Part shown: piece after piece, positions 1,957-21,443 of the stretch
Numbering within the stretch: the first letter of the stretch is position 1
Layout: each line of letters starts with the position of its first letter
DNA from: Nitrospirae bacterium JdFR-86
GTDB taxonomy: Bacteria > Nitrospirota > Thermodesulfovibrionia > Thermodesulfovibrionales > JdFR-86
Length of the DNA stretch: 36,816 nt
NCBI GenBank assembly: GCA_002011815.1
Contig: MTOV01000009.1
Span: forward strand, 77,266-114,081
Direction: 5' to 3'
Notes under the pieces: generated by a model
Seen by the model: only the letters and a program-made list of their open reading frames with translations
Database searches by the model: none
Told to the model about the DNA's origin: nothing
Position numbers and translations under genes: made by a program

Positions 1957-2760
1957 TTAAGGGTTAATAAGGTTTTCCTGCGAATTGATTTTCTCAGAAG
2001 GATACAAAAGCAATATACTGATTCTTCTGTTTCTTGGATCAGTAGGGTCTTCTTTTATAAGAGGGTCTGTTGCTGCATAGCCTGCTACTTTTGTAAGGCG
2101 GTCTGGATCCATGCCGTAGCGTTCGAGTTCTCTTCTTGCGGCAGATGCCCTTTCTGTAGAAAGTTCCCAGTTTGTGTATTTATTCGTTGAGTAAGTAAGG
2201 GCATCTGTGTGCCCCTCGATAGCTATCTTATTATTAATATCTCTTATGCTTTCAGCTATAACCTTGAGAATCTTTTTTGCATCTTCTGTAGGTTCGGCGC
2301 TACCAAGAGAAAACATCGGCTTGCCTTTTTTGTCTACAAGTTGAATTCTTACACCACCTTCGAAGATATCGACCATTACCTGGTCTTTGACATCCGCCAA
2401 TTTCTCTTCTATCTGTTTTTTCAACCTATCCTTCAGTTGTTCCCGGCTAAGCACATCCATACTTCCTCTTCCGAGTTCTTTTGGCACCTTTGGAGCCTCT
2501 CCTGCCCTTTCGTCCATTATCTCAACACTGCCTTCCATCATGGATGTGCCGGCATGTTGAAAAAGTGCAAAATACTTGAAATAGCTTGCAACCCTTGCCC
2601 TTTTTTCAGGCGAGACCATTGTGATGAGCCACAGGAGGAGGAAAAAAGCCATCATTGCGGTCACAAAGTCTGCATAGGCTACTTTCCAAGAACCACCGTG
2701 ACTGCCTTCATGACCTCTCTTCTTAGACTTTTTTATTATTATTGTCTTTTGCTGTTTCAC
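1957..2760 (-). CDS. motB: Flagellar motor stator protein MotB (classical type)
   Basis: A 267-residue stator B subunit that anchors the motor to peptidoglycan and forms the ion channel with MotA in the inner membrane. One membrane segment (about residues 26-48) contains the ion-binding aspartate in VAYADF (about D31) followed by VTAMMAFFLLLWLI, the pattern of proton-type MotB. The C-terminal OmpA/MotB peptidoglycan-binding domain is clear (IEGHTDA near residue 180, then WELSTERASAARREL). The start is GTG at 2760; GTG and the motA stop TGA overlap in GTGA, so the two genes are translationally coupled. This is the first of two stator sets in the window. Confidence 0.93.
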   Translation of the reverse strand: MKQQKTIIIKKSKKRGHEGSHGGSWKVAYADFVTAMMAFFLLLWLITMVSPEKRARVASYFKYFALFQHAGTSMMEGSVEIMDERAGEAPKVPKELGRGSMDVLSREQLKDRLKKQIEEKLADVKDQVMVDIFEGGVRIQLVDKKGKPMFSLGSAEPTEDAKKILKVIAESIRDINNKIAIEGHTDALTYSTNKYTNWELSTERASAARRELERYGMDPDRLTKVAGYAATDPLIKEDPTDPRNRRISILLLYPSEKINSQENLINP

Positions 2761-3608
2761 CTGCTGCTTAATGACTTCTCCAGTTCGCTAAAGGTGGGCC
2801 TTTCCTTGCCTGGTATAGCTCTTCTTCCTGACTCAACAGCCATCTGTGGTGCAGCACCGCCCACAAAGGCGACAAGGACTACCCTGATAACCTGAAAATA
2901 CACTTCTTTTTCCTTTGCCTTGTGCTCAAGATTAGTAGCCATTGGACCGACAAAGCCATAGCACATCAAGACTCCGAGGAACGTGCCGACAAGGGCAGCG
3001 CCTATGCTGTGACCCAGCACCGAAGGCGGCTGGTCTATCTTGCCCATGGTAAGCACAACACCAAGGACTGCAGCAACTATTCCAAGACCAGGAAGAGCAT
3101 CAGCAACCTTTGCAATACTGGTAGCCGGAGTCATCTCCTCATGATGATGCGCCTCTATGTCAATCTCCATCAGACTGTCAAGTTCATGCGGAGGCATATT
3201 CGCAGTGATTATCACCTTCAGATTGTCGCATATAAACTCAAGTGCGCGGCTGTTTGCGACAACGGTCTTATACTTGTTGAATATCGCACTCTTTTGCGGA
3301 TTCTCTATATCCGCTTCAATAGAAATAAGACCATCTTTTCTTATCTTTGACAGTATTGTGTTCAAGAGGGAAAGGAGTTCAAGATATGCCTGCTTGTTCG
3401 TGCTGTCAGAGCTGAAAATAGTCTTGATATTCTTAATAATATTTTTCAGCACTCTTGCAGGAGAGGCAATTATGAGTCCTCCTATAGCAGCACCGAATAT
3501 AATAACTACTTCTGCAGGCTGGAAAAGCACATGAAGATTGCCTTCCTCCATAAGGAAGCCGCCTATTACAGAGCCCAAAACTATAATTATGCCTATAGCA
3601 GCAAACAT
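2757..3608 (-). CDS. motA: Flagellar motor stator protein MotA (classical type)
   Basis: A 283-residue stator A subunit with four membrane segments, near the length of E. coli MotA (295). The cytoplasmic loop keeps the rotor-contact charges (RKDGL followed seven residues on by a glutamate), and the last two membrane segments carry the conserved prolines (ADALPGLGIVAAVLG and GFVGPMA). GIVAAV lacks the threonine seen at this point in sodium-type PomA/MotP, so proton coupling is likely by inference. ATG start at 3608; 61 bases separate it from the histidine kinase upstream, and its stop overlaps motB by four bases. Confidence 0.94.
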   Translation of the reverse strand: MFAAIGIIIVLGSVIGGFLMEEGNLHVLFQPAEVVIIFGAAIGGLIIASPARVLKNIIKNIKTIFSSDSTNKQAYLELLSLLNTILSKIRKDGLISIEADIENPQKSAIFNKYKTVVANSRALEFICDNLKVIITANMPPHELDSLMEIDIEAHHHEEMTPATSIAKVADALPGLGIVAAVLGVVLTMGKIDQPPSVLGHSIGAALVGTFLGVLMCYGFVGPMATNLEHKAKEKEVYFQVIRVVLVAFVGGAAPQMAVESGRRAIPGKERPTFSELEKSLSSR

Positions 3609-5143: not shown

Positions 5144-5818
5144 TCAATCCTGAACTATCACAATATCCACTCTCCTGTTTTTTGCCCTGCCCTCTGGTGT
5201 TTCGTTGGGTGCTATGGGTCTGAATTCGCCATAGCCTGCTGCAGAGAATCTTTCAGGAGAAAGATTATAGTTTTTCAGAAGATAGCTTAAAACACTTGTC
5301 GCCCTTGCAGTAGAAAGCTCCCAGTTAGACGCATATTTTGAATTGTGTATAGGCACGCTGTCTGTATGCCCCTCGATTATTACGTTATTTGGAAGCTCCT
5401 CGATGACCGAGGCAAGAGCCGTCAATACCGGAATAGCCTCTTCCTTTATATCCGCCTTACCGACCTCAAAAAGCACTTGCTCTCCCAAAGACACTACTAC
5501 TCCTCTTTCATCCCTTCTTATCCTTATGCCTTTTTGCGCCGGAAAAGCATCTATTACGCTTTTGAATTTCTTTTCGATACCAACGATATCCGGATCCACA
5601 GGGGTCACCTCGTCTATAACCGACCATGAAGTCTCAACCCCTTTGGCCTTAAAGGCAGACCTCATCGAGCCTGCAAATTTCTCAAGCTTGCCCACATCTA
5701 CATGGCTGATTGCATACATCGTAGTAAAGAATGCAAAAAGCAAGGTGATAAAATCCGCATAGGAGACCACCCATCTGTCTGTATTGTCCTGCTCGTATTT
5801 TCTCCTGCTTCTTTTCAT
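5144..5818 (-). CDS. motD: Flagellar motor stator protein, MotD/MotB family
   Basis: A second stator B subunit. I chose ATG 5818 (224 residues), which follows the motA-like stop by 10 bases; an upstream TTG at 5884 would overlap the partner gene by 56 bases and add a lysine-rich tail. The membrane segment begins RWVVSYADFITLLFAFFTTMYAIS, with the ion-binding aspartate at about D22. WxVSYADFITLLFAFF is typical of the MotD branch of Pseudomonas-type MotCD stators rather than classical MotB. The C-terminal OmpA-like domain contains VIEGHTDSVPI and WELSTARATSVLSYL for peptidoglycan binding. The kinase gene starts 13 bases after the stop. The family is certain; the MotD sub-branch call is from motif recall. 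Confidence 0.88.
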   Translation of the reverse strand: MKRSRRKYEQDNTDRWVVSYADFITLLFAFFTTMYAISHVDVGKLEKFAGSMRSAFKAKGVETSWSVIDEVTPVDPDIVGIEKKFKSVIDAFPAQKGIRIRRDERGVVVSLGEQVLFEVGKADIKEEAIPVLTALASVIEELPNNVIIEGHTDSVPIHNSKYASNWELSTARATSVLSYLLKNYNLSPERFSAAGYGEFRPIAPNETPEGRAKNRRVDIVIVQD

Positions 5819-5828
5819 ATTAGAAAAC

Positions 5829-6593
5829 TTATAACTTTTCTCCTGGTTCTTTTTCTTCAATGAAAACCCTGAGTTTTTCCTCAAGGTAGCGGGGGTTTAT
5901 CCCTAACTGTATACCTATAACTCCCTCGAGAATCATCTCCCTTAGGGATAATTCCTTGTCCAGCCTGTTGATAAGCTTTTTTGATATAGGCAGAAGTATC
6001 AGGTTTGCAGAACCCACACCGTATATAGTTGCCACAAATGCAACTGCAATTCCTGAACCGAGTTTTGCAGGGTCGGAAAGATTCTCCATCACATGTATGA
6101 GCCCGAGAACTGCTCCGATAATCCCGATAGTAGGTGCAAACCCACCCGCAGTCTCAAAGACCTTGGCTATTCGTCTTCTCTCCTCTTCATAGGTAATGTT
6201 TTCCTGCTGCATTGTCTCCCTCACTACATTTGGTGCCATGCCATCAACCGCAAGTGTAAGTGCCTTTCTGAAAAAACTGTCCTTGATTTTTGAAATCTCA
6301 GGCTCAAGTGAAATCAGTCCTCTCCTTCTGGCTCTCTCCGAATAAAGAATAAAATCATTGATATATGATTCAGGGTCCGGGTCTTTTCCAAAAAACACAT
6401 CCCTAAGAGACGAAACCGCCTTCAGCACATCACTTAAAGGAAAACTCAACAGCGTTGCGCCTGCAGTTCCCCCAAAAACGATTACAGCTGCAGTTCCCTG
6501 CACAATAGAGTCCAGCGCTCCACCTTCGAAAATATTTCCACCGACAATCGCTGCTATGCCGAGAATTATTCCTATAAAACTTGCACTGTCCAT
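5829..6593 (-). CDS. motC: Flagellar motor stator protein, MotC/MotA family
   Basis: A 254-residue stator A subunit with four predicted membrane segments. It is shorter than the MotA at 2757-3608 and clearly a different branch. The third and fourth segments read GGFAPTIGIIGAVLGLIHVM and AVAFVATIYGVGSANLILLPI, as in the PomA/MotC branch. The residue after GIIG is alanine where sodium-type PomA has threonine, so proton coupling is my inference. The loop keeps RRRGLISLEPE, matching the rotor-contact charges. I prefer ATG 6593, which overlaps the PilZ stop as TGATG; a TTG one codon upstream also exists. Tight coupling to the PilZ gene suggests the stator is its target. Confidence 0.9.
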   Translation of the reverse strand: MDSASFIGIILGIAAIVGGNIFEGGALDSIVQGTAAVIVFGGTAGATLLSFPLSDVLKAVSSLRDVFFGKDPDPESYINDFILYSERARRRGLISLEPEISKIKDSFFRKALTLAVDGMAPNVVRETMQQENITYEEERRRIAKVFETAGGFAPTIGIIGAVLGLIHVMENLSDPAKLGSGIAVAFVATIYGVGSANLILLPISKKLINRLDKELSLREMILEGVIGIQLGINPRYLEEKLRVFIEEKEPGEKL

Positions 6594-7468
6594 CAAACAT
6601 TATTTTCCCACTGTCGTCTCTTCTCTCTTATAATCTCTCTTTGACGATTAAGTGCGTAATGTATTATTTCATCTCTGACATCATCACCCATATCAGAGAA
6701 GTCCACAGCAACCTCATATCTGCCGTCATCCAGGGCATTAACCCTGACTACATCGCCTGTTGTAACCACACCTACTGGAGGTGACGTGGGCAGAAGCATC
6801 TTAACCTCAAGCACATCTCCTACTTCGAGTTTCTCGTTCACCGTAAACCTGATGCCTACTGCACTTACGCTTATGTGCTTGTGCTCCGCCTTCATAAGCC
6901 GGTAACCGTCTATTTGCAGTTTCTGCAATATTACCTCGAGCTTGGTATCAACCTCATCAAACATTTTCAATACCTGTCTATTTGTTGCCTCATCCGGCAC
7001 TGATACATCAGACATCTCAAGTGCATAGAGCATCAAACTGAGCTTGGAATTAACACTGCTGAGTTTTTCAAGCAGCCGGGCAGTTGCCGAATCTACATCT
7101 TCAGGCACTTTTACCTCGGCAACCTCCATGCCAACGCCGGAGAATGTCCTCGCCTTTCTTCGAGGTGCACTCTTGTCTATCTTTCTGGAGACTACGGGAA
7201 AGACATCATCCACTCGAAAATACCTGCGTTGCTCTGCCCAGAGAGGCTTCAACTCAAGTGTCTCATGTCCGAACTTCAGCACCTGAGTGAAATAGTCGTC
7301 GTCCCCGCTGCGCACGACCACTTCCTGTCCTGCAGGCAATGCCTTCCCAGGAGACTCGTTCAGCTTAAGAACAAACTTTTCACTATCCTGTGAAAGCACT
7401 TCTGCAGTGTAAAACGTTTTGCCGTGGATAGACCGCCAGAAAACCTTTTCCCCTTGTTTAAATATCAT
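6593..7468 (-). CDS. Two-domain PilZ protein with helical insertion, probable flagellar brake
   Basis: A 291-residue cytosolic protein. Residues 1-75 form a beta-rich YcgR-N-like domain. RRYFR at about 81-85 is the RxxxR c-di-GMP motif, but the second motif appears only at about 200-205 (SVSAVG, with serine in place of D/N). The roughly 110 residues between are mostly helical with leucine heptads (ARLLEKLSSVNSKLSLMLYAL). This resembles the atypical tetramer-forming PilZ type more than standard YcgR. The ATG start follows AGGAGGG. Its stop overlaps the motC-like start, so it very likely acts on that stator when c-di-GMP is bound, as FlgZ/YcgR proteins do. Binding strength is uncertain because of the altered second motif. 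Confidence 0.8.
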   Translation of the reverse strand: MIFKQGEKVFWRSIHGKTFYTAEVLSQDSEKFVLKLNESPGKALPAGQEVVVRSGDDDYFTQVLKFGHETLELKPLWAEQRRYFRVDDVFPVVSRKIDKSAPRRKARTFSGVGMEVAEVKVPEDVDSATARLLEKLSSVNSKLSLMLYALEMSDVSVPDEATNRQVLKMFDEVDTKLEVILQKLQIDGYRLMKAEHKHISVSAVGIRFTVNEKLEVGDVLEVKMLLPTSPPVGVVTTGDVVRVNALDDGRYEVAVDFSDMGDDVRDEIIHYALNRQREIIREKRRQWENNV

Positions 7469-8143: not shown

Positions 8144-8542
8144 TTAAGCGCCAAGCGTCTCCTTCAACGTGTGCAAACCTTTCCCCCCTTCTTCAAGTAT
8201 CGGGCAAAACTCATACTGTATGAGGTCAGCAAGCATTATCCAGTCTTTTCTTTCAAATGCAGAAGCCATGTCCCTGAGAACTACAAGAGACTTGTCCCAG
8301 CAGGAAAGAGGCTCTTGCGATACATCAAGGTGTTTCAAGCCATTTCTCAACTCTCTTATGTAATCCATAAGATAGCTCAGATTATCAAATGCTTCTGACA
8401 GGGAGTTGAAAAGTTCTTCTGTCTGCTCGACTCTGAGATGGTTTGCACATTCCATAAGCTCTGTCCCTATCTCAGCAGTAATGTCTCCTGTCTCTGCAAG
8501 GCTTTTCTTAACAACATCCAGTAACTCTTGTTTGCTTCCCAC
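8144..8542 (-). CDS. Small all-helical protein of unknown function at the end of the glycosylation cassette
   Basis: I do not recognise this 132-residue protein. It has no signal peptide or membrane segment, looks wholly helical, and is acidic with two short heptad-like stretches (LFNSLSEAFDNLSYLMDYIRELRNGL). The GTG start at 8542 is fixed by a strong AAGGAGGT seven bases upstream, which is formed by the last codons and stop (AGG AGG TAA) of the glycosyltransferase gene, so the two are coupled. The context suggests a role with the glycosyltransferases, such as an adaptor or chaperone, but this is inference only. Confidence 0.7.
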   Translation of the reverse strand: MGSKQELLDVVKKSLAETGDITAEIGTELMECANHLRVEQTEELFNSLSEAFDNLSYLMDYIRELRNGLKHLDVSQEPLSCWDKSLVVLRDMASAFERKDWIMLADLIQYEFCPILEEGGKGLHTLKETLGA

Positions 8543-8548
8543 TGTTTT

Positions 8549-10288
8549 TTACCTCCTTGGAATTTCCTGTTTATGATACTCATTCACACTGTCCTTTGTC
8601 ATCTTACCTGCTTCTTCCTTAGAAGCATGCAAAGACATCAACTGCTCAATAGTCTGCATTATTATCTTTGTATGGTTCAGCAGGTCAGTGTAAAGCAGAC
8701 GAATCTGCTCGGCTTGCGAGGCAAGGTCTTCATCCTCAATGCTTCCCTTTCCGTATTTGAACAGGAAGGTTAAAGGGCTCAGAAGAGAATGAGAATACCC
8801 TATTTTTTCTATTTCCTCTTCGATATCCGGCACTCTTTTCCACAGCTCCTTTATACGTTTGACATCCGGAGAAGGCCTCACAGCCTCTTTGGCTATGAGT
8901 GTGACAAGAGACAATCCCATTTCGGTCAGACCGATCAGGCTCCTCAGAGCATTGAGTTCTTCGTCCAACTGAACTGCTGCCTCAATCGAGTTGTGCCTGA
9001 GGTTTATCTTGTCGACAATACTCTGATACAGTTCTTCCGGTGTTAATTCTGAATCTCCATCAAGAATCCTGACCCATGTCTGCCTGTAAAGATATGAAAA
9101 CAGGGTCTTATTATTCAGCGGACGCTTTATAAGAGGATAATAATCCAGAAACCCATCTTCTGCAAAATACGAACGGTAAATCTGTACACCATCCCACATG
9201 GAAGAAGGCTCTATCTGCAAAACATCAGTATTAAGCATTATGCGTCGTGTCAACTCAAAAACCTTATCTGCGCTTATTGCATCTTTACATATCATTTCAC
9301 TGCATTTCACACGAAAGCTGCATGGACTGCACGGTATATCAGCCTGCACTGCATAGTGCCCCTCGCCATACGGACCTGTCTCCCTGAAAAGAGCCGTAAC
9401 CAGAAAGATACCAATTACCTTTGTGCCAACTGCAGTAGCTATATGCATAGGTCCTGTATCGTTGCTTATAAAGAGATTGCATCTTTTAAGCAGGGAAGCC
9501 AGTTCAACCAGACTTGTCTTTCCGATGAAATTAAGAGGCTTTGTCCTGACAATGTCCTCGAATTTCTTTCCAAGCTCTGCCTCTTTGGAAGAGCCTGTAA
9601 GCAGGATTTTGGCTCCGAATTCATCTGTCAGCCTGTCTGCAAGCTCTGCAAAAGAAGAGACAGGCCATCTTCTGTCCTCACGGCTTGCCCCGAGTTGAAG
9701 CCCGATAAGAATATCCCCTTCACCTACCCCATGCTTTAATAAAACGTCATTTACACTCTGCTCTGCATCTTCAGGAACGACAAGGTGCAGTCCTTTTTTA
9801 GCAGGCACTGCGCCTCCAATCTTGACGTGAAGGTCGCAGATATGAAACGGATTGCACTGTCTGCTCGTAACTATATTGAAAAAATACCTCATCCACGGAT
9901 GCTTGATAACACTATGCCCTTCGGCATCTACGGTGTAGCCCCGTATCTCCTTTGCGTTGATTAGAGACAGCAAAAAAGCGCTTGCTGTAGAATGGGTAAG
10001 GTTTATCGCCACGTCGTAAACTGTGTCGTTCACTGTGCGAAGACTGTCCTCTACATACCGGAATCCACTTATAAAGTCATCGTTGTTTAAGCTTTCTATA
10101 ACTTTTTTCCCGTCGAATGTAAGCACCCTGTCCACATAAGGAATATAGTTGCATATTTCAAAGAAGGCAGGACTTACAAGCAGGGTAATTCTCACTGCAG
10201 GGTATTTTTCCTTAAGACCTGCAATCACAGGTGTGGTCTGCAAAAGGTCACCCATGCGTGTAAGATTAACTATAATTACGTCTTTCAT
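8549..10288 (-). CDS. GT9-type glycosyltransferase with C-terminal helical extension
   Basis: 579 residues. The first roughly 350 match the heptosyltransferase (GT9) fold: N-terminal IIVNLTRMGDLLQTTPVIAGLK, the second-domain start IGLQLGASREDRRWP, and the nucleotide-sugar site LFISNDTGPMHIATAVGTKVIGIF. A cysteine-rich stretch follows (CSPCSFRVKCSEMICKD), as is common in this family. About 210 further residues (370-579) are predicted helical and are not part of normal GT9 enzymes. No membrane anchor is present. The ATG start overlaps the upstream stop as ATGA. In this cassette it probably adds a sugar to flagellin or its glycan rather than to LPS core, though an LPS role cannot be excluded. 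Confidence 0.82.
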   Translation of the reverse strand: MKDVIIVNLTRMGDLLQTTPVIAGLKEKYPAVRITLLVSPAFFEICNYIPYVDRVLTFDGKKVIESLNNDDFISGFRYVEDSLRTVNDTVYDVAINLTHSTASAFLLSLINAKEIRGYTVDAEGHSVIKHPWMRYFFNIVTSRQCNPFHICDLHVKIGGAVPAKKGLHLVVPEDAEQSVNDVLLKHGVGEGDILIGLQLGASREDRRWPVSSFAELADRLTDEFGAKILLTGSSKEAELGKKFEDIVRTKPLNFIGKTSLVELASLLKRCNLFISNDTGPMHIATAVGTKVIGIFLVTALFRETGPYGEGHYAVQADIPCSPCSFRVKCSEMICKDAISADKVFELTRRIMLNTDVLQIEPSSMWDGVQIYRSYFAEDGFLDYYPLIKRPLNNKTLFSYLYRQTWVRILDGDSELTPEELYQSIVDKINLRHNSIEAAVQLDEELNALRSLIGLTEMGLSLVTLIAKEAVRPSPDVKRIKELWKRVPDIEEEIEKIGYSHSLLSPLTFLFKYGKGSIEDEDLASQAEQIRLLYTDLLNHTKIIMQTIEQLMSLHASKEEAGKMTKDSVNEYHKQEIPRR

Positions 10289-12078
10289 ACGTGCACATCC
10301 CTTGAGGTATAAATTTCCTTAATCTCCCTCATAAGGAGAAAAATCTTTTCGACATCTGAGAGCTTTCCTTCTTTTGAGGCTATCTCCTCCACAATCTCAG
10401 GGAAGCCAACTCTGCCCCTTCCAATAAATCCTGCAAGGTATTTTCCAAGCTCTGTATTGCTTCCGGCTCTCTGAAGCAGGGTTCCTATGTCGTGTTTTCC
10501 TTTTGCCCATGGTGGCAGTTCAAAGCCATGTTTCAGGACGAAATTCAGCATTTCTTCCATTCTGTGTCTGTATGTATGCTCTTTTAGAACCCTTGCCCTT
10601 GCTCTCTCTGCAATCTCCTGTCTTTCCTCAGGATTATTGAGGTAATACCTTATCTTTCGCTTGAGGTCATCAAGACTGTTAAAGCATATAATCTCTTTGC
10701 CCGGTTCAAAGAACTCAGCGAGCTCAGGCCGGCAGTCCACAAGCTGGAACCCTCCGCACGCTGCCACCTCGAATGTCCTCGGATTTAAGAAATCGCCGTA
10801 GGGGTTTATTCCTTCATGATATGTGGAAGAATGCAGGTTTATGTTTATCTTCGTGGCGTTGAATATCTTGACAATCTCCTCTGTTTCTATCCTTTCGCCG
10901 TTTCTCTGGACGCACTTTCCAAGTGGCGAATTCAAGTCCCACTCACTTCCCCATATCTTAAAGTCAAACCCGAGCAGACCTTGGAAAAACAGTCTTCTGT
11001 TGTAATATCCAGCACCCATGAACGAAACATCGCTTCCGTACTCAGCGAGCTCATCAGGGCTGAGCTCCAATTTCCTGTGGACATCAGGACAAGCGGCAAG
11101 AGGTAAATACGAAAAATTATTCGCCCCTATATCTCTTAGTCTTTTAAAGAACTCGCCTTTCTGAATGACAAAGAAGTAGTTATAAAACGGAGCAATACTC
11201 TGCCAGTAGGTCAGATGCCTGAAGTCCTCTACAAACCAGAAGGCAGTAACAACCTTCAGGTCTCTGAGCCTCACAAGAGCGTTATGAGTAAAAGGTGCCT
11301 GCGCAAGTGCAAACAGGAAGTCAGGCTTAAATTCCTCGCACCTTGTCATTATGGTTTCAGAAATAAAGTCAACAAGCAGTGACCTCAGTTGAGACCGCTG
11401 GCTCTTGTTCTGTGTCAAGGCGTCGATGCCGAAGTAAGTATCTCTGTATCGGCTGTTGTCCACATACTCCACTTCATGTCCCATCTCCCTTAAGGCATGG
11501 GTGCAGTACTCTGCAATAGGAAGTGACCCGCCATAAATCGGGCCAACAACCATGATTCTCAAACACTCCTTCGCTGCCTTAAGCGCCCTGAGCTTTGAAT
11601 ACAGTGCATCAAAATAACCACTGTTCAAACTCATAGAAGGTTTATGCTCAAGAACCGTAAACCCTTTGCTTATAGAAGACAGGTCATTGCCTGTAAGAAT
11701 CCTTACTCTTGAAAGAACCGATGTTAAATCTATTGATTCAATCGCTGTTTTAAGGACATCCAGTCTCGGCTCAACGACAACCACATCCGTCGGGGTTCTC
11801 TTACATAACTCTATAATGTGATATCCCAACCCGAAGCCGAGCACAACGAGTTGAGATGCCCTCTGAATGCTCTCTCTGTGATATTCCACCCACGCTTCTG
11901 CCTCTCTTACCGGATCATACAGACTATGAAGTGCAATATCGCCTGCCTTTAAAGAAAGACGCCCTGTCTTTGTGGTGACAAGTTGCAGGTCAGCTCCTGC
12001 CTTTGCGGCAACAACCGCAGAGGCAAGCTCCGGGTCCAGACTGCTTAATGCCCTGATGTTTTCTTCAAAAAACCTCAT
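10285..12078 (-). CDS. Maf N-terminal domain fused to CgeB-type glycosyltransferase (copy 2)
   Basis: 597 residues. Residues 1-180 resemble the N-terminal part of motility-associated factor (Maf) proteins: the motif LHSLYDPVREAEAWVE, then a Rossmann-like LVVLGFGLGYHIIELCKR and VVVVEP. The usual Maf DUF115 transferase core is not seen. Instead, residues from about 193 (IMVVGPIYGGSLPIAEY) look like a GT-B CgeB/DUF3880-type transferase ending in FLNPRTFEVAACGGFQLVD and a C-terminal RARARVLKEHTYRHRMEEML helix. Maf proteins glycosylate flagellin, so this enzyme probably adds sugar to the filament protein. ATG start at 12078 overlaps the previous stop (ATGA). It is a clear paralogue of the gene at 12075-13742. 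Confidence 0.8.
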   Translation of the reverse strand: MRFFEENIRALSSLDPELASAVVAAKAGADLQLVTTKTGRLSLKAGDIALHSLYDPVREAEAWVEYHRESIQRASQLVVLGFGLGYHIIELCKRTPTDVVVVEPRLDVLKTAIESIDLTSVLSRVRILTGNDLSSISKGFTVLEHKPSMSLNSGYFDALYSKLRALKAAKECLRIMVVGPIYGGSLPIAEYCTHALREMGHEVEYVDNSRYRDTYFGIDALTQNKSQRSQLRSLLVDFISETIMTRCEEFKPDFLFALAQAPFTHNALVRLRDLKVVTAFWFVEDFRHLTYWQSIAPFYNYFFVIQKGEFFKRLRDIGANNFSYLPLAACPDVHRKLELSPDELAEYGSDVSFMGAGYYNRRLFFQGLLGFDFKIWGSEWDLNSPLGKCVQRNGERIETEEIVKIFNATKININLHSSTYHEGINPYGDFLNPRTFEVAACGGFQLVDCRPELAEFFEPGKEIICFNSLDDLKRKIRYYLNNPEERQEIAERARARVLKEHTYRHRMEEMLNFVLKHGFELPPWAKGKHDIGTLLQRAGSNTELGKYLAGFIGRGRVGFPEIVEEIASKEGKLSDVEKIFLLMREIKEIYTSRDVHV

Positions 12079-13742
12079 ACAGCATACCTCTTTCTCATGC
12101 TCTCGATCATACTGTTCAGTCTGTGTCTGTATGTATGCTGACTTAGAACCCTGTCTCTTGCCCTTTGAGCAACTGTCTTTCTCTTATCAGAATTGTCAAG
12201 GTAAAACCTTACAAGCTCAGGTATCTCGCCTTTTTCTTTATAGGTAATGACCTCTTTGCCTTCTTCAAACAGCTCGCTGAGCTCTTCCTGCTGGTCGGTA
12301 AGCAGAAAACCACCGCATGCCGGAACATCAAAGACCCTCTGGTTGACAGCCCCACCCATCTGAAGGCTCGTGGCATTAAGATTTACCCTGCACGCGTTGT
12401 AAAAGAGAGGAAGCTCCCTGTAATAATTAAGAGGCGGATAGAGCTTATAGTCTTTACTGAGAAGTTTGCTCCAGCCTCTATCGCCATGAATATGGTGCCC
12501 GAATCCTTTAAGCATCTCTACGCATGAAAGACGGTAAAGAAGCGTTGCCCTCCAGATAGCAGCAGCCTCAAAATCAATCCTTTCCTGCACCGGAAGATGA
12601 CTGATGTCTATATCCAGACTCTTCACTGCCTCTTCAAAAGACATTCTCGACGTGCTGAGCAGTCGCGCCACCTTTTCCACAAGCGGGTGAAGCTCTTTGC
12701 GCAGTTTTCTCAGCCTTTCCTCAGTAGGCTCTGCCATGGAGTTACCGACAAACCCTACATCACACCGATATGCCTTAAGATGTTTTTTGCTGAGCTTGAT
12801 TGGCTTAAATACCGTCTCGTCCGTGGCAAGCGGAAGATAAGAAACCGACTCAAATCCCACAGACCTCATGTCATCCATATAGCCCTTGTCCCACAGAAAA
12901 AGCGAGACATAAGGAGATACATTCTCCTTGAATTCCCTGACAATGATATTAGGACTGTCCACATACCATGAAGCAACCGGCATCTCAATGGAATTAAAGA
13001 AAGACGTCAGGGCCCCTTCTTCATCGAACCCGAGATGGTTCAGGGCAAGGAAAAAGTCAGGCTTGAATTCGATGATTTTTTCAATCAACCCGTGCACAAA
13101 AGCCTCACTGCCCTGCTCCCTTCTAACGTGTATCTTTACTGGCCTGTGACCGAGCCTCTTCAGCGCCTTCTCCACCTCGACATTGAGGAAATAGCCTGAA
13201 TCCAAAACAGCAACGACAAGACTGTCATTTTTAAACTTAGGATATTTAAGCCTCTCCCAGAGTCTAATCGACACGGTTTTTTTCAGCGCTGAAACAATAG
13301 GGCGGTAGTAGTCAGAGAACGCAGAAACAGCAGAAGACAGGGTAAAGACTGCAACCGGAGCTATCCCGTTTTTCATCTGGTGTCTTGTAATCTCTCTTAA
13401 TGCTTCTTCAGGAGAAAGCCCTACGACATACCGGACTTTATCAGAGATTTCTTCACGTTCTTTTGCGATTTCATATATTTCAGGGACTGCCTCGACCACA
13501 ACAAGTTCAGCGCGGGGAAATCTTCTAAGGAGTTCTTTTATATGGTAACCGAAGCCTAGTCCAAGCACGACAAGGATGCCGTTTCCGTCGAACTGAAAGG
13601 CATCCACGATGCTTTTAGCCTCTGCCTCCGGGTCGTAGAGGCTGTGGAGCGCCTTTTCCGAGCCGTCCTCACCTTTTACCTTCAAGGAAGGCTTACCGCT
13701 TTTGGTCTCCACCAGTGAGATATTATGCGAAGTAAAGACCAT
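12075..13742 (-). CDS. Maf N-terminal domain fused to CgeB-type glycosyltransferase (copy 1)
   Basis: 555 residues with the same architecture as its downstream neighbour: a Maf-N-like region (ALHSLYDPEAEAKSIVD, LVVLGLGFGYHIKELLRR, ELVVVEAVPE) over about the first 175 residues, then a GT-B CgeB-type transferase with YVDSPNIIVREF, VGFVGNSMAEPTEERL, VNQRVFDVPACGGFLLTD and the terminal RARDRVLSQHTYRHRL helix. Divergence from copy 2 is strong except for these motifs, so the duplication is old and the two may add different sugars. ATG start at 13742 with AGGGAAT just upstream; the stop overlaps the next start. Cytosolic, with no membrane segment. The donor sugar is unknown. Confidence 0.8.
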   Translation of the reverse strand: MVFTSHNISLVETKSGKPSLKVKGEDGSEKALHSLYDPEAEAKSIVDAFQFDGNGILVVLGLGFGYHIKELLRRFPRAELVVVEAVPEIYEIAKEREEISDKVRYVVGLSPEEALREITRHQMKNGIAPVAVFTLSSAVSAFSDYYRPIVSALKKTVSIRLWERLKYPKFKNDSLVVAVLDSGYFLNVEVEKALKRLGHRPVKIHVRREQGSEAFVHGLIEKIIEFKPDFFLALNHLGFDEEGALTSFFNSIEMPVASWYVDSPNIIVREFKENVSPYVSLFLWDKGYMDDMRSVGFESVSYLPLATDETVFKPIKLSKKHLKAYRCDVGFVGNSMAEPTEERLRKLRKELHPLVEKVARLLSTSRMSFEEAVKSLDIDISHLPVQERIDFEAAAIWRATLLYRLSCVEMLKGFGHHIHGDRGWSKLLSKDYKLYPPLNYYRELPLFYNACRVNLNATSLQMGGAVNQRVFDVPACGGFLLTDQQEELSELFEEGKEVITYKEKGEIPELVRFYLDNSDKRKTVAQRARDRVLSQHTYRHRLNSMIESMRKRYAV

Positions 13743-13763: not shown

Positions 13764-16250
13764 TCAGCCGGTTAAGCATCTCAAGTTTGGCGACTGTGCC
13801 GCACCCTGCATTTGTCTATCCTCTAAAAAATAACAGACGCCTTCTCCTAAAAGCCGGTCGATTTCTCTCAGGCGGGGAGACAGACGGTTCAGAGTTTCTT
13901 CCTCAAGATAATAAGTACCAAGGGCGCTTCCCGCTGTCATTGCAAATATCTTATAGATGCACGAAATAAAATCCTTCTCCCTGCCTTTTAAAGTATGATG
14001 TTTACAGTAAAGATACTCTGCAAAATTACCAAAGCGATCCATAAAATCCGGAATTATGAAGTTCCGCTTAAAATTGTATCGTTGCTCCGGCAGCAGGACG
14101 ATGTCCCCTGCTATCTGCCCCAACAACGAATTCAGGCTGTCATCCCCTTGAATCCCTCTTTCTTCCAGTGTCTTTTCTATCCTTCCAGGAGAGGTCTCCA
14201 TGTTTGCCTTGAGAGCGTTGATGAATGTTTTTATAGCCGTTACAGGCTCAAGGTCTATATGTCCTAACCCAGCAACCGCGATATTGATTAAATCATAAGT
14301 GCCTGCAATGCTTGCTATCACCGAATCTAAGGTTATATCGTTTATATTGAAGAAATACGGCAGATCGTCTTCAAGGATATATATCTGGGCTTTCGTACTT
14401 ATATAATGCCGCTTAAATACATCATCTGCTCCCCTATCGTGCCAGTGATAGACCCCTGTTGAGGTCAGATAACCGATAGTCTTTTTTCTTTCGAGAAGTT
14501 TCACTCCAAAATCAATATCTTCCGCATTAATAAGAGGGCTGAATTGGATCTCCTTAAAAACATCCCTTCTGATACAAGATGAAACATTATCAAGGAATGT
14601 CAATCTCCGCTTAGTCGTGCTGTCAAAGAGCTTCCAGTCTATCCTCTTTGAGTTTTCAGACAGTGTGTAAATGGAATCATTTTCAAAACCTAACAATCTT
14701 GCCATGCTCTCATTCAGCCAGAGGCTGAACAGATCGGCTTCCGGCTTGACAAACTGCCTTGAAGACAGTGCTGCCAGCTCAGGGTATTCAATAAACGGGC
14801 ATATCATGTTATAGAGCCAATAATCGCCTACAGGCATTGCATCCTGGACTGTAAAGACGAGGTAATCGCCGCTTGCCTCCCTTGCCCCGAGATTACGGGT
14901 ACTTCCATGGTTAAACTCTTTCTGGGCAATGCGAATAACCTTAGCTCCAAACTCTTCAGCAATCTGTACCGAGTTGTCCGTTGACTCTGAATCTATGACG
15001 ATGATCTCAACATCCTGAACTCTTCGCTGAGACCGAATCCTGCCCAAAAGCTCCCTTAACTGCCCGCCACCATTTTTTACAGGAATAATCACCGATACTT
15101 TAGAGGTAATTACCGGAGGCCTTGTCCTGATAGCCATCTGGTTAATAACAGGTGCATTCCGGAAATACTCCTTTTGTTTTACAAGGTCCGTATATAAGTT
15201 CAACCATTTATGAGCATTCTTCTGGACGGTGTATTTCTCCTTTACCTCTGAATAGGCGCTCTGTCCTATCTTTAACCGCAGATCCTTATTCTCAATCAAC
15301 ATTTCCATCGCTTTATACCAGCTCTCCTCATCATCATTTGCCAGTATGCCTGTTACGCCATCAGTTACGGACTCGGCATACGGGGCTATCTTTGAATAGA
15401 TGCCTGGAATTTTACATATCGAATACTCCAGAAACTTAATGCTGCTTTTACATTCATTAAATGGCGAGCTGACAAGGGGGGCAAGGGCGATATCAATATG
15501 ATTGCTCTGGAACATGCTGGCAAACTCCCTGTAGTCTTTAACTAAACTCTGGACAAGCTCCACTTCCTCCATGTCACGTAATTCCTCGGTGATGCATCCC
15601 ACTGCCCGGAAAATGACCCTGCCTTTGTATTTCTGCAAGATCCGCTTAATCGCAGGGCTTATCATCTGTAAATCTTCCCCATGGGTCGGCGTGCCCATAT
15701 AGCCCATGACAATCTTCCCATCCCTTCCCTGCGTTGTGCCAACCTTTGAACCTGACCAGATGTTTACATCTATATAGTTGGGGAGGACATAAATGTTTTT
15801 GTTGTATTTTAAGAGTTGCTCTTTCAGCTTTGGGGTTGTTACTGTAATCGCATCAACCCTCCTCATCAGATTGATTATATGCTGGGCGGACTCATCGTAA
15901 CCTGTTTTTTGGGGGTGGGAGTTAGGCAGTTTTATCAACAGGTCATCGACCTCGTAAACAACCACTTTGCCAAGTCGTCTTGCCTCTGCAAGTATCGCTG
16001 AAGTAAACAGATTGGCGTCCCTCTGGATTACAACGATGTCAGCCTCTTTTATGGCATCGAGATTAACATATATACCTCTGTCGGTAAATTCCGTGCCAAA
16101 AACCACCCTGAGCCTGCCTTTCATACAGGAAGTGGTGAGCGGACTTATCAGGCGGATCATCGGACAGGCATGTGAATAGTCTGCGAACGAGTAGAGCAAG
16201 ACAGTGATAACCTTATTTTTCAGTTTCTTCTTTTTTATTTTCTTTGCCAT
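13764..16250 (-). CDS. Two-domain glycosyltransferase (GT4-like plus GT2 rhamnosyltransferase-like)
   Basis: 828 residues. After a very basic N-terminus (KKIKKKKLKNK), residues 12-370 form a GT-B, GT4-like domain (VIQRDANLFTSAI, VVYEVDDLLI, YVLPNYIDVNIW, SSIKFLEYSICKIPGI). Residues from about 384 form a GT-A, GT2 domain: VSVIIPVKNGGGQL, VIDSESTDNS, and YLVFTVQDAMP, where QDA replaces the usual DxD as in rhamnosyltransferase-like GT2 enzymes, then AEDIDFGVKLL and GVYHWHDRG. The last roughly 150 residues are helical. Two transferases in one chain suggest sequential addition of two sugars. ATG start at 16250 after AAGGGA. It follows the sulfotransferase gene in the cassette; flagellin or surface glycan assembly is inferred. 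Confidence 0.85.
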   Translation of the reverse strand: MAKKIKKKKLKNKVITVLLYSFADYSHACPMIRLISPLTTSCMKGRLRVVFGTEFTDRGIYVNLDAIKEADIVVIQRDANLFTSAILAEARRLGKVVVYEVDDLLIKLPNSHPQKTGYDESAQHIINLMRRVDAITVTTPKLKEQLLKYNKNIYVLPNYIDVNIWSGSKVGTTQGRDGKIVMGYMGTPTHGEDLQMISPAIKRILQKYKGRVIFRAVGCITEELRDMEEVELVQSLVKDYREFASMFQSNHIDIALAPLVSSPFNECKSSIKFLEYSICKIPGIYSKIAPYAESVTDGVTGILANDDEESWYKAMEMLIENKDLRLKIGQSAYSEVKEKYTVQKNAHKWLNLYTDLVKQKEYFRNAPVINQMAIRTRPPVITSKVSVIIPVKNGGGQLRELLGRIRSQRRVQDVEIIVIDSESTDNSVQIAEEFGAKVIRIAQKEFNHGSTRNLGAREASGDYLVFTVQDAMPVGDYWLYNMICPFIEYPELAALSSRQFVKPEADLFSLWLNESMARLLGFENDSIYTLSENSKRIDWKLFDSTTKRRLTFLDNVSSCIRRDVFKEIQFSPLINAEDIDFGVKLLERKKTIGYLTSTGVYHWHDRGADDVFKRHYISTKAQIYILEDDLPYFFNINDITLDSVIASIAGTYDLINIAVAGLGHIDLEPVTAIKTFINALKANMETSPGRIEKTLEERGIQGDDSLNSLLGQIAGDIVLLPEQRYNFKRNFIIPDFMDRFGNFAEYLYCKHHTLKGREKDFISCIYKIFAMTAGSALGTYYLEEETLNRLSPRLREIDRLLGEGVCYFLEDRQMQGAAQSPNLRCLTG

Positions 16251-16306: not shown

Positions 16307-17446
16307 TCATAATTTATTCTCAGACAGCAAAGCAATGTTTACCTTTGCCTCTTCGTTCTCCGGATCAAGCTTAAGTGCCCTTCTAAATAACTCTTCAGCA
16401 GCCCTATAATCTCCGAGTTGAAAGCTCAATACACCAAGGTTATTGAGTGCCTCAGCACTTTCAGGGTTTAAAGACAGTGCCTTCTCAAAAAAGTATGCGG
16501 CATCATCAAACCTTTCGAGCTTGAAACAGAGCTCTCCTATCTCCACCAGCACCTGAGACTTCTGTATCGGGCCTGATGCCTGCTGCAATTTCCCCTCACA
16601 AGCCTTCAGGGCTGCTTCAAGGTCTTGCATATAGGTATCATCCAATGGGGCAGCACTTCCTGCCAGTGCCTGACGGCACACAGGCCCTGCTTCTTCGCAC
16701 ATCTCCATATATAATCTTGTCACCTCGGCAGGGACTTCTGTCTTCTGAAGAAGCTCCGGTGTAGAGGACCGATTATGCCTTAAAGCAACAGAAATCGTCC
16801 TACATGCCTTTTTCAGCATTTCTTCGGAAACGGACAAACCTAAAAAATCCAGCAGACGTCTTAACTCTGCAACCGGGTCGGCGAAGTAAGCGTCATAGTG
16901 CGTAATTATCCGTTGTTCAGGGCTTGCAGCAGCCAGCAGACGCTGATTGTAAGTCAGCCACAAATGATACCCAAACATAGCGGAGTTCTTGTTGCGTTTA
17001 ATAAGCGACCATGCAACTTCAAGCGGATTCCTAAGACATACCACAACCTTCATATCTGGCAGAAGGCTTTTCCAGAACGGCAGTGTCAGACTATTGCGCG
17101 GGTCTTTCCAGCCCCATGCCTCGTGACCTTTAAACCTCTGAACAAGACTTATTGCCTTACTTTTAAACCGATTGAATTCTGGTTGCTGTTCCCATCCATC
17201 CTCGACAAGAGGAGGCAAATCCCATGCCCCTCCTAATTCGGCAAGTATCATATCGTTCAGTCCCACGAAGCTCTTGTTTTCCCAAAATCCTTCCGGGTTG
17301 TCAGGTGCAGGCTCCATAAGGTCACTTTCCTGCCCAAGGTATAACCCGCATAGATTCAGCAGCCTGGTAACCATCGAAGTGCCTGAACGGTGCATACCTG
17401 TGATACAGACCGGCATCTCTCCCCCTATGTCATACAGTTCATTCAT
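16307..17446 (-). CDS. Sulfotransferase-family protein with C-terminal TPR repeats
   Basis: 379 residues. The N-terminal domain has the PAPS 5'-phosphosulfate loop ITGMHRSGTSMVTRLL (about 15-30) and the 3'-phosphate motif VVVCLRNPLEVAWSLIKRN near residue 135, so it should transfer sulfate to a sugar or protein. At least two TPR units follow (FDDAAYFFEKALSLNPESAEALNNLG and YRAAEELFRRALKLDPENEEAKVN, about 300-375), as in proteins that bind peptide partners. It opens the transferase part of the cassette. Its ATG at 17446 lies within the end of a 21-codon frame. Sulfation of flagellin or its glycan is a plausible but unproved role. Confidence 0.8.
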   Translation of the reverse strand: MNELYDIGGEMPVCITGMHRSGTSMVTRLLNLCGLYLGQESDLMEPAPDNPEGFWENKSFVGLNDMILAELGGAWDLPPLVEDGWEQQPEFNRFKSKAISLVQRFKGHEAWGWKDPRNSLTLPFWKSLLPDMKVVVCLRNPLEVAWSLIKRNKNSAMFGYHLWLTYNQRLLAAASPEQRIITHYDAYFADPVAELRRLLDFLGLSVSEEMLKKACRTISVALRHNRSSTPELLQKTEVPAEVTRLYMEMCEEAGPVCRQALAGSAAPLDDTYMQDLEAALKACEGKLQQASGPIQKSQVLVEIGELCFKLERFDDAAYFFEKALSLNPESAEALNNLGVLSFQLGDYRAAEELFRRALKLDPENEEAKVNIALLSENKL

Positions 17447-20597: not shown

Positions 20598-21443
20598 TTA
20601 TCTCAGAAGCTGGAGTGCCTGCTGTGGAAGTACGTTTGCCTGTGCAAGAACCGCTGTTGCCGCCTGAACGAGTATCTGGTTCTTCGTGAACTCTGCGGTC
20701 TCCTGAGCAAAGTCCGCATCCCTTATACGTGAGTCAGCTGCAGTGAGGTTCTCGCCTGCAATTCTGAGGTTGGCAATGGTTGACTCAAGCCTGTTCTGGA
20801 TTGCACCGAGGTCGCCCCTTCTCTGTGCAACAGTAGATATAGCGCTGTCAAGCGTATCGAGCATTGACTGTGCAGCAGTACTCGACAAGATGTTGCCAGT
20901 GATGTTGAGGTCTGAAGACTTCAGCGAATTCAATGTAGTTGTACCGCTGCCGCCTATCGTTATGCGGTCGTTAGTTGTGTTCCTGAAGCCGACCTGCAGG
21001 GTTATACCGGTTGAAGACAGGTCGCCGTTGAGGAGCTTCTTTCCATTAAACTCTGTGACCTCTGCAATTCTGTCTATCTCACTCTTCAGTGACTGGAACT
21101 CGTTGTCCAGAGCCGAAAGCTCAGAGCTTCCGAGTGTGCCGTTGGCTGCCTGCTGTGCCAGCTCCCTCATCCTTGTGAGGATGCCGCCGATTTCCTGCAT
21201 GCCGCCTTCTGCAGTCTGCGCAAGGCTTATACCGTCCTGAGCATTCCTGATAGCAACATTAATGCTCCTGATGTGCGCCCTTAACTTTTCGGATATGGCG
21301 AGACCAGCAGCATCGTCCTTCGCTGAGTTAATCCTTAAACCAGAAGACAGCCTTTGAACAGAAAGGTCCAGCCTAAGGGTGTTTTGCACGAGCTGTCTCT
21401 GTGCATTTAGAGAAGCTATGTTGGTGTTGATAACAAGTGCCAT
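20598..21443 (-). CDS. fliC: Flagellin
   Basis: 281 residues, so a short flagellin that has the conserved D0/D1 ends and only a small central region. N-terminus MALVINTNIASLNAQRQLVQNT and C-terminus RIRDADFAQETAEFTKNQILVQAATAVLAQANVLPQQALQLL are classic. The TLR5-recognition stretch is close to the canonical form (LTRMRELAQQAANG). The centre (about 145-200) is rich in Ser, Thr and Gly, a likely area for O-glycosylation by the cassette downstream. There is no cysteine. ATG at 21443 with AAGGAGG. It is transcribed from a near-consensus sigma-28 promoter at 21568-21594 and is probably repressed by CsrA on its leader. Confidence 0.97.
   Translation of the reverse strand: MALVINTNIASLNAQRQLVQNTLRLDLSVQRLSSGLRINSAKDDAAGLAISEKLRAHIRSINVAIRNAQDGISLAQTAEGGMQEIGGILTRMRELAQQAANGTLGSSELSALDNEFQSLKSEIDRIAEVTEFNGKKLLNGDLSSTGITLQVGFRNTTNDRITIGGSGTTTLNSLKSSDLNITGNILSSTAAQSMLDTLDSAISTVAQRRGDLGAIQNRLESTIANLRIAGENLTAADSRIRDADFAQETAEFTKNQILVQAATAVLAQANVLPQQALQLLR

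Follow-up and report, generated by a model that had tools for sequence, protein, structure and literature searches.

The window analysed here, 36,816 nucleotides of a contig from Nitrospirae bacterium JdFR-86, carries on its minus strand two intact open reading frames, A (12075-13742, 555 aa) and B (10285-12078, 597 aa), and thereby contains the tandem pair that the earlier note had described between 10285 and 13742. The reading frames overlap in an ATGA at the A/B junction and again at the junction of B with the GT9 gene that follows. Both belong to a minus-strand run of genes in the order flagellin, flaG, fliD, fliS, fliT, MerR, sulfotransferase/TPR, GT4/GT2, A, B, GT9, 132-aa protein, response regulator, PilZ, motA and motB. 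The description of the pair as lying next to flagellin is thus appropriate as far as the common gene run is concerned but loose with respect to distance, as flagellin is located 6.9 kb upstream with fliT, fliS, fliD and flaG in between. The neighbouring genes referred to below are:

20598-21443, minus strand: flagellin, 281 aa, short form (PF00669, PF00700), the probable acceptor
16307-17446, minus strand: sulfotransferase with C-terminal TPR repeats (PF13469, E = 1e-16; TPR)
13764-16250, minus strand: GT4-GT2 two-domain glycosyltransferase upstream of A (PF13692, PF00535)
8549-10288, minus strand: GT9 (heptosyltransferase-family) protein with a C-terminal extension (PF01075, E = 8e-33), conserved partner of B
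8144-8542, minus strand: 132-aa protein kept after GT9 and a candidate for an accessory role in glycosylation

Residues 138-198 of the flagellin consist of Ser/Thr to 33%, compared with 13% in the remainder of the protein. A Pfam search found no match for the 132-aa protein; at least 27 related loci encode a homologue, mostly just 3' of the GT9 gene. The sulfotransferase/TPR gene sits between fliT/MerR and the glycosyltransferases, and sulfation of flagellin or of the glycan is possible. The window also contains two separate motA/motB pairs on the minus strand (1957-3608 and 5144-6596).

Domain architecture of A and B

A and B each consist of a Maf N-terminal domain (Maf-N) followed by a CgeB-type GT-B glycosyltransferase. 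Domains and motifs are distributed as follows:

13248-13742, minus strand: A residues 1-165, Maf N-terminal domain (PF20157, 2e-4; phmmer to the DUF115 Maf of L037, 5e-15; model pLDDT 92; 5MU5, Z 12.2)
12075-13247, minus strand: A residues 166-555, CgeB-type GT-B glycosyltransferase, DUF3880 + Glyco_trans_1_2 (Pfam; fusion CgeB profile, E = 1e-97 in the own genome)
11554-12078, minus strand: B residues 1-175, Maf N-terminal domain (PF20157, 3.7e-9; hhalign against N-domains of DUF115 Mafs)
10516-11553, minus strand: B residues 176-521, CgeB-type GT-B glycosyltransferase (PF13524; model pLDDT 91.6; GT4-fold matches)
10288-10515, minus strand: B residues 522-597, C-terminal helical tail (DSSP of the model; conserved in alignments of B orthologues)
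13620-13646 and 13542-13562, minus strand: motifs HSLYDPEAE and GLGFGYH of A
11902-11928 and 11818-11838, minus strand: motifs HSLYDPVRE and GFGLGYH of B

The N-terminal signature is present as claimed in the earlier note, LHSLYDPxxEA being followed by GLGFGYHI in A and by GFGLGYHI in B. In Pfam searches, B matched Maf_flag10_N (PF20157, 3.7e-9), DUF3880 (1.8e-11) and Glyco_trans_1_2 (PF13524, 1.1e-45); A matched DUF3880 (1.4e-11) and PF13524 (9.5e-35), while its PF20157 match (2.1e-4, 21.3 bits) stayed just below the cutoff of 23.5. The two proteins share 33% identity in the N-terminal part and 33% in the C-terminal part. Several lines of evidence agree that the N-terminal ~170 residues are Maf-N. 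Searched with phmmer against PF01973-bearing Mafs of the same phylum, the A N-domain matched those of L036 (5e-13) and L037 (5e-15). Profile-profile alignment with hhalign connected the N-domains of the CgeB fusions to those of DUF115 Mafs with a probability of 100 (E = 2.3e-44, 168 columns), whereas the control against real methyltransferase domains reached only 15% over 46 columns. Modelled alone (pLDDT 92), the A N-domain had the Maf structure 5MU5 as its top solved match (Z 12.2, rmsd 5.2, 157 residues), followed by spermine synthase (Z 8.8). A plain Foldseek search of the N-domain placed methyltransferases on top, with 5MU5 absent among the best 50 rows, and the Maf-N fold itself is therefore methyltransferase-like. 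Against methyltransferase families in Pfam, Maf-N of A and B gave weak matches only, all below cutoff. A phmmer search of A and B against the PDB returned nothing significant; 5MU5 appeared for B in the correct region with an E-value of 0.73.

The PF01973 domain, the DUF115/MptE-like core of Maf proteins, was found neither in A or B nor elsewhere in the genome (2.1 Mb, 25 contigs, listed as 100% complete). With DUF3880 and PF13524 in its place, the proposed replacement of DUF115 by a CgeB-like GT-B transferase is borne out. Relation of the N-terminal domain to Maf-N and absence of DUF115, the two points on which the proposal had been staked beforehand, both hold. Assignment to the CgeB-like class rests on the two Pfam domains, each above cutoff, and on the GT-B fold as examined on B: the whole-protein structure was modelled for B (pLDDT 91.6, pTM 0.82), and the CgeB part of A is assigned by Pfam and alignment. 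Residues ~172-520 of the B model match GT-B enzymes of the GT4 fold, namely BshA, sucrose-phosphate synthase, trehalose transferase and PimA, with Z-scores of 21-26.

Distribution, flagellar linkage and alternation with DUF115 Mafs

The search for this domain order covered 290 genomes from the phylum Nitrospirota, whose mutual relatedness means that the counts do not represent independent events. The N-domain profile was positive in 109 of the 290 genomes. These divide exactly into 13 genomes with PF01973 in the same frame (true Maf) and 96 genomes with a B-type CgeB domain (E < 1e-90); in one genome, G108, stop codons or a frameshift interrupt the gene. In 65 of 68 loci the gene immediately following B encodes a GT9 homologue, and A-type proteins occur in 12 genomes, always alongside B. 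Outside Nitrospirota, the named matches included Thermodesulfobacteriota, Calditrichota, Acidobacteriota and Nitrospinota. The combination of Maf-N with a CgeB-type domain thus recurs widely. Since 96 of the 290 genomes have the B type, the pair in the window is more than a local peculiarity; of its two members, B is the one usually met, with A as an extra.

Among the 178 flagellin-bearing genomes, 107 have Maf-N, compared with only two of the 112 flagellin-less ones (Fisher's exact test ignoring kinship, P = 4e-28). A Maf-N + DUF115 protein (L177:7807-10182) occurs in a genome, G125, in which flagellin was not found. Distances worked out from hand-copied coordinates of profile matches place flagellin no more than 30 kb from B in 53 of the 54 cases where both share a contig (median 3.8 kb) and from true Maf in 10 of 10 (median 4.1 kb), compared with one of 10 for standalone CgeB. 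Because the fusions are linked to flagellin and standalone CgeBs are not, and because of the near-absence of Maf-N from genomes without flagellin, it is highly improbable that the cluster makes a surface polysaccharide (LPS or capsule) in an accidental flagellar neighbourhood, an explanation that would fit the GT9, GT4 and GT2 genes alongside and the non-flagellar CgeB enzymes found elsewhere. From the flagellar linkage we infer that A and B transfer sugar to flagellin; their activity, donor, acceptor and order of addition, as set out below, are predictions.

Most Nitrospira-like genomes carry the fusion just upstream of GT9 and fliC-flaG-fliD-fliS, and in other genomes a DUF115 Maf occupies that same position. 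Flagellin frames span 532-802 aa in all 11 true-Maf genomes measured and 219-319 aa in all 61 fusion genomes measured. NeuB is present in 12 of 13 true-Maf genomes versus 32 of 96 fusion genomes, leaving 64 of the 96 without it. The genome of the window has no true NeuB either, its best PF03102 match (8e-11) being background compared with clear cases (1e-56 to 1e-108). Since NeuB is missing, the donor in these fusion genomes, the present one included, is probably not a nonulosonic acid. The contrast between Maf and fusion is also found within a single group of genomes (g107: G085, G135 and G153 versus G108, G197 and G216), and it looks as if whole islands, flagellin included, have been exchanged between the two types. 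Both types are present together in a few genomes (G207, at L180; also L072 and L082). The split into short and long flagellins is not universal, as DUF115 Mafs of Bacillota are found beside flagellins of ~270-300 aa (L081, L091, L095, L104, L111).

Maf-N is furthermore attached to methyltransferase domains, preceding them in L063:5255-6634 and L068:8665-9990 and following them in proteins of L159 (9769-11232) and L161 (8979-10463); the protein at L161:5476-8979 has the order methyltransferase-MafN-DUF115-TPR. In L068, the N-domain on the methyltransferase shares 91% identity with the one in the neighbouring B gene; in L063 the corresponding figure, relative to the neighbouring A gene, is 47%. 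In the tree the two nest within the B type and the A type, respectively. Nesting together with identity to the neighbour indicates separate, local domain copying. Some relatives (L048, L056, L064) have extended versions in which a GT2 or GT17 domain precedes Maf-N. In the N-domain tree, most N-domains from CgeB fusions fall into one group (SH-aLRT 86); in the CgeB tree, which has long branches, B falls among standalone CgeBs and A apart. The AU test does not reject a single A+B clade (P = 0.24), the duplication named in the earlier note being one possible origin of the pair. A third, divergent Maf-N + CgeB protein adjoins the B gene in L058 (3325-4911). The N-domain of this protein is placed weakly with DUF115 Mafs, the CgeB part among other CgeBs, and it is perhaps an independent fusion.

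Possible roles of Maf-N

Three features of Maf-N are nearly invariant, the motifs HSxYDPxxE and GxGxGYH and an acidic residue that follows the second strand; together they look like the pattern of a nucleotide pocket. Among B-type rows, the acidic residue is kept in 47 of 62 and the third glycine in 46 of 62. The function of the Maf N-domain has been called unclear (PMC11339370). In Aeromonas, Maf1 engages flagellin in the cytoplasm ahead of the chaperone (PMC4065374), and flagellin recognition in Maf is attributed to a C-terminal TPR (Maf-1) or to the partner GlfM (Maf-2) in PMC13317340 (citing Unay 2024).

Two readings receive equal weight from us, each a possibility that we hold short of conviction. 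Maf-N might be a flagellin-binding module, as the earlier note had suggested, that brings flagellin to the attached enzyme, be it DUF115, CgeB or methyltransferase. That several unrelated enzymes, most of them encoded at flagellin loci, share this domain, that it was recently copied in L068 and that its presence tracks that of flagellin all argue in this direction; the assignment of recognition in Maf to the TPR or GlfM, the service of long and short flagellins by the same N-domain and the resemblance of the invariant residues to a small-molecule pocket argue in the other. Alternatively, Maf-N might bind a ligand (SAM-, nucleotide- or nucleotide-sugar-like) and sense or gate activity or present the donor, without touching flagellin. 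This is what the methyltransferase/spermidine-synthase-like fold would suggest, together with a GxGxG that is near-universal across effector classes and an HSxYDPxxE from which the CgeB fusions hardly deviate. Against ligand binding, HSxYDP is poorly kept among methyltransferase fusions (2-3 of 7), 15-16 of 62 B-type rows are devoid of the acidic residue and the third glycine, and no ligand of the 5MU5 N-domain is known to us.

That Maf-N is instead a working methyltransferase, making A and B two-function methyl/glycosyltransferases, is scarcely credible despite the fold, the glycine motif and a C. difficile flagellin glycosyltransferase with a methyltransferase domain known from PMC5207246, as the model has only four parallel strands besides an N-terminal hairpin, the published Maf N-domain has been termed degenerate (PMC11339370), and full methyltransferase domains, to which hhalign gave only the 15% noted above, are separately fused to Maf-N.

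Tentatively, and with no firmer commitment than to flagellin or ligand binding, Maf-N could be regarded as a mobile, flagellin-directing module on at least three unrelated enzymes (DUF115 sialyltransferase-like, GT-B CgeB and SAM methyltransferase), with flagellin type and enzyme swapped together as an island, that is, long flagellin, NeuB and DUF115 versus short flagellin, CgeB and GT9.

Proposed working of the cluster and relation to known systems

We consider it likely that A and B glycosylate flagellin in the cytoplasm and follow the design of Maf with the engine exchanged, B and the GT9 protein forming the core pair. In such an arrangement, Maf-N, a reduced methyltransferase-fold domain, would have been retained as the common front module, and the C-terminal GT-B domain would move the sugar, probably from a UDP/NDP-sugar and with retention. 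The sugar would be attached to Ser/Thr within the middle part of the short flagellin, or to a sugar that this part already carries. B and the downstream GT9 protein would represent the widespread core pair, and A, found only with B, would be a second transferase that may add a further sugar or serve a further site; the earlier note's idea of separate sugars or sites behind the divergence of A and B is plausible in this respect. GT4-GT2, GT9 and the sulfotransferase would lengthen or decorate the glycan ahead of export.

Among known systems, Maf proteins (PF20157 + PF01973; 5MU5 from Magnetospirillum magneticum AMB-1) share with A and B the homologous N-terminal domain, the location at flagellin loci and the expected flagellin acceptor. 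They differ in the DUF115/sialyltransferase-like core, which in A and B is missing in favour of the GT-B CgeB-type core, and in that genomes with fusions mostly lack NeuB and have short flagellins. Standalone CgeB-like glycosyltransferases (DUF3880 + PF13524, 330-400 aa) have the catalytic domain in common with A and B but are devoid of Maf-N and mostly encoded away from flagellin. FlmG of Caulobacter crescentus (PMC7591256) is likewise a modular flagellin enzyme with an N-terminal domain and a C-terminal GT-B transferase. Its N-terminal TPR domain was shown to bind flagellin, whereas A and B carry Maf-N in this place and had no Pfam match to TPR. Lastly, GT1 and GT2 of C. difficile type B flagellin resemble A and B as consecutive transferase genes beside fliC with stepwise glycan building; they are set apart by description rather than by sequence, the available part of PMC5207246 reporting no Maf-N. 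Among open-access papers, we found none linking CgeB with flagellin glycosylation.

The retention of Maf-N while the catalytic core changes, in related genomes and at the same gene position, amounts to a natural domain-swap experiment. As Maf-N is shared across engines, its role must suit all of them, and its occurrence on methyltransferases makes the domain testable as a reusable part. The fusions point to a large family of likely flagellin glycosyltransferases that has so far gone unstudied. It is found in Nitrospirota, Leptospirillum among them, and in scattered other phyla, and occurs in cells that are mostly without nonulosonic acids.
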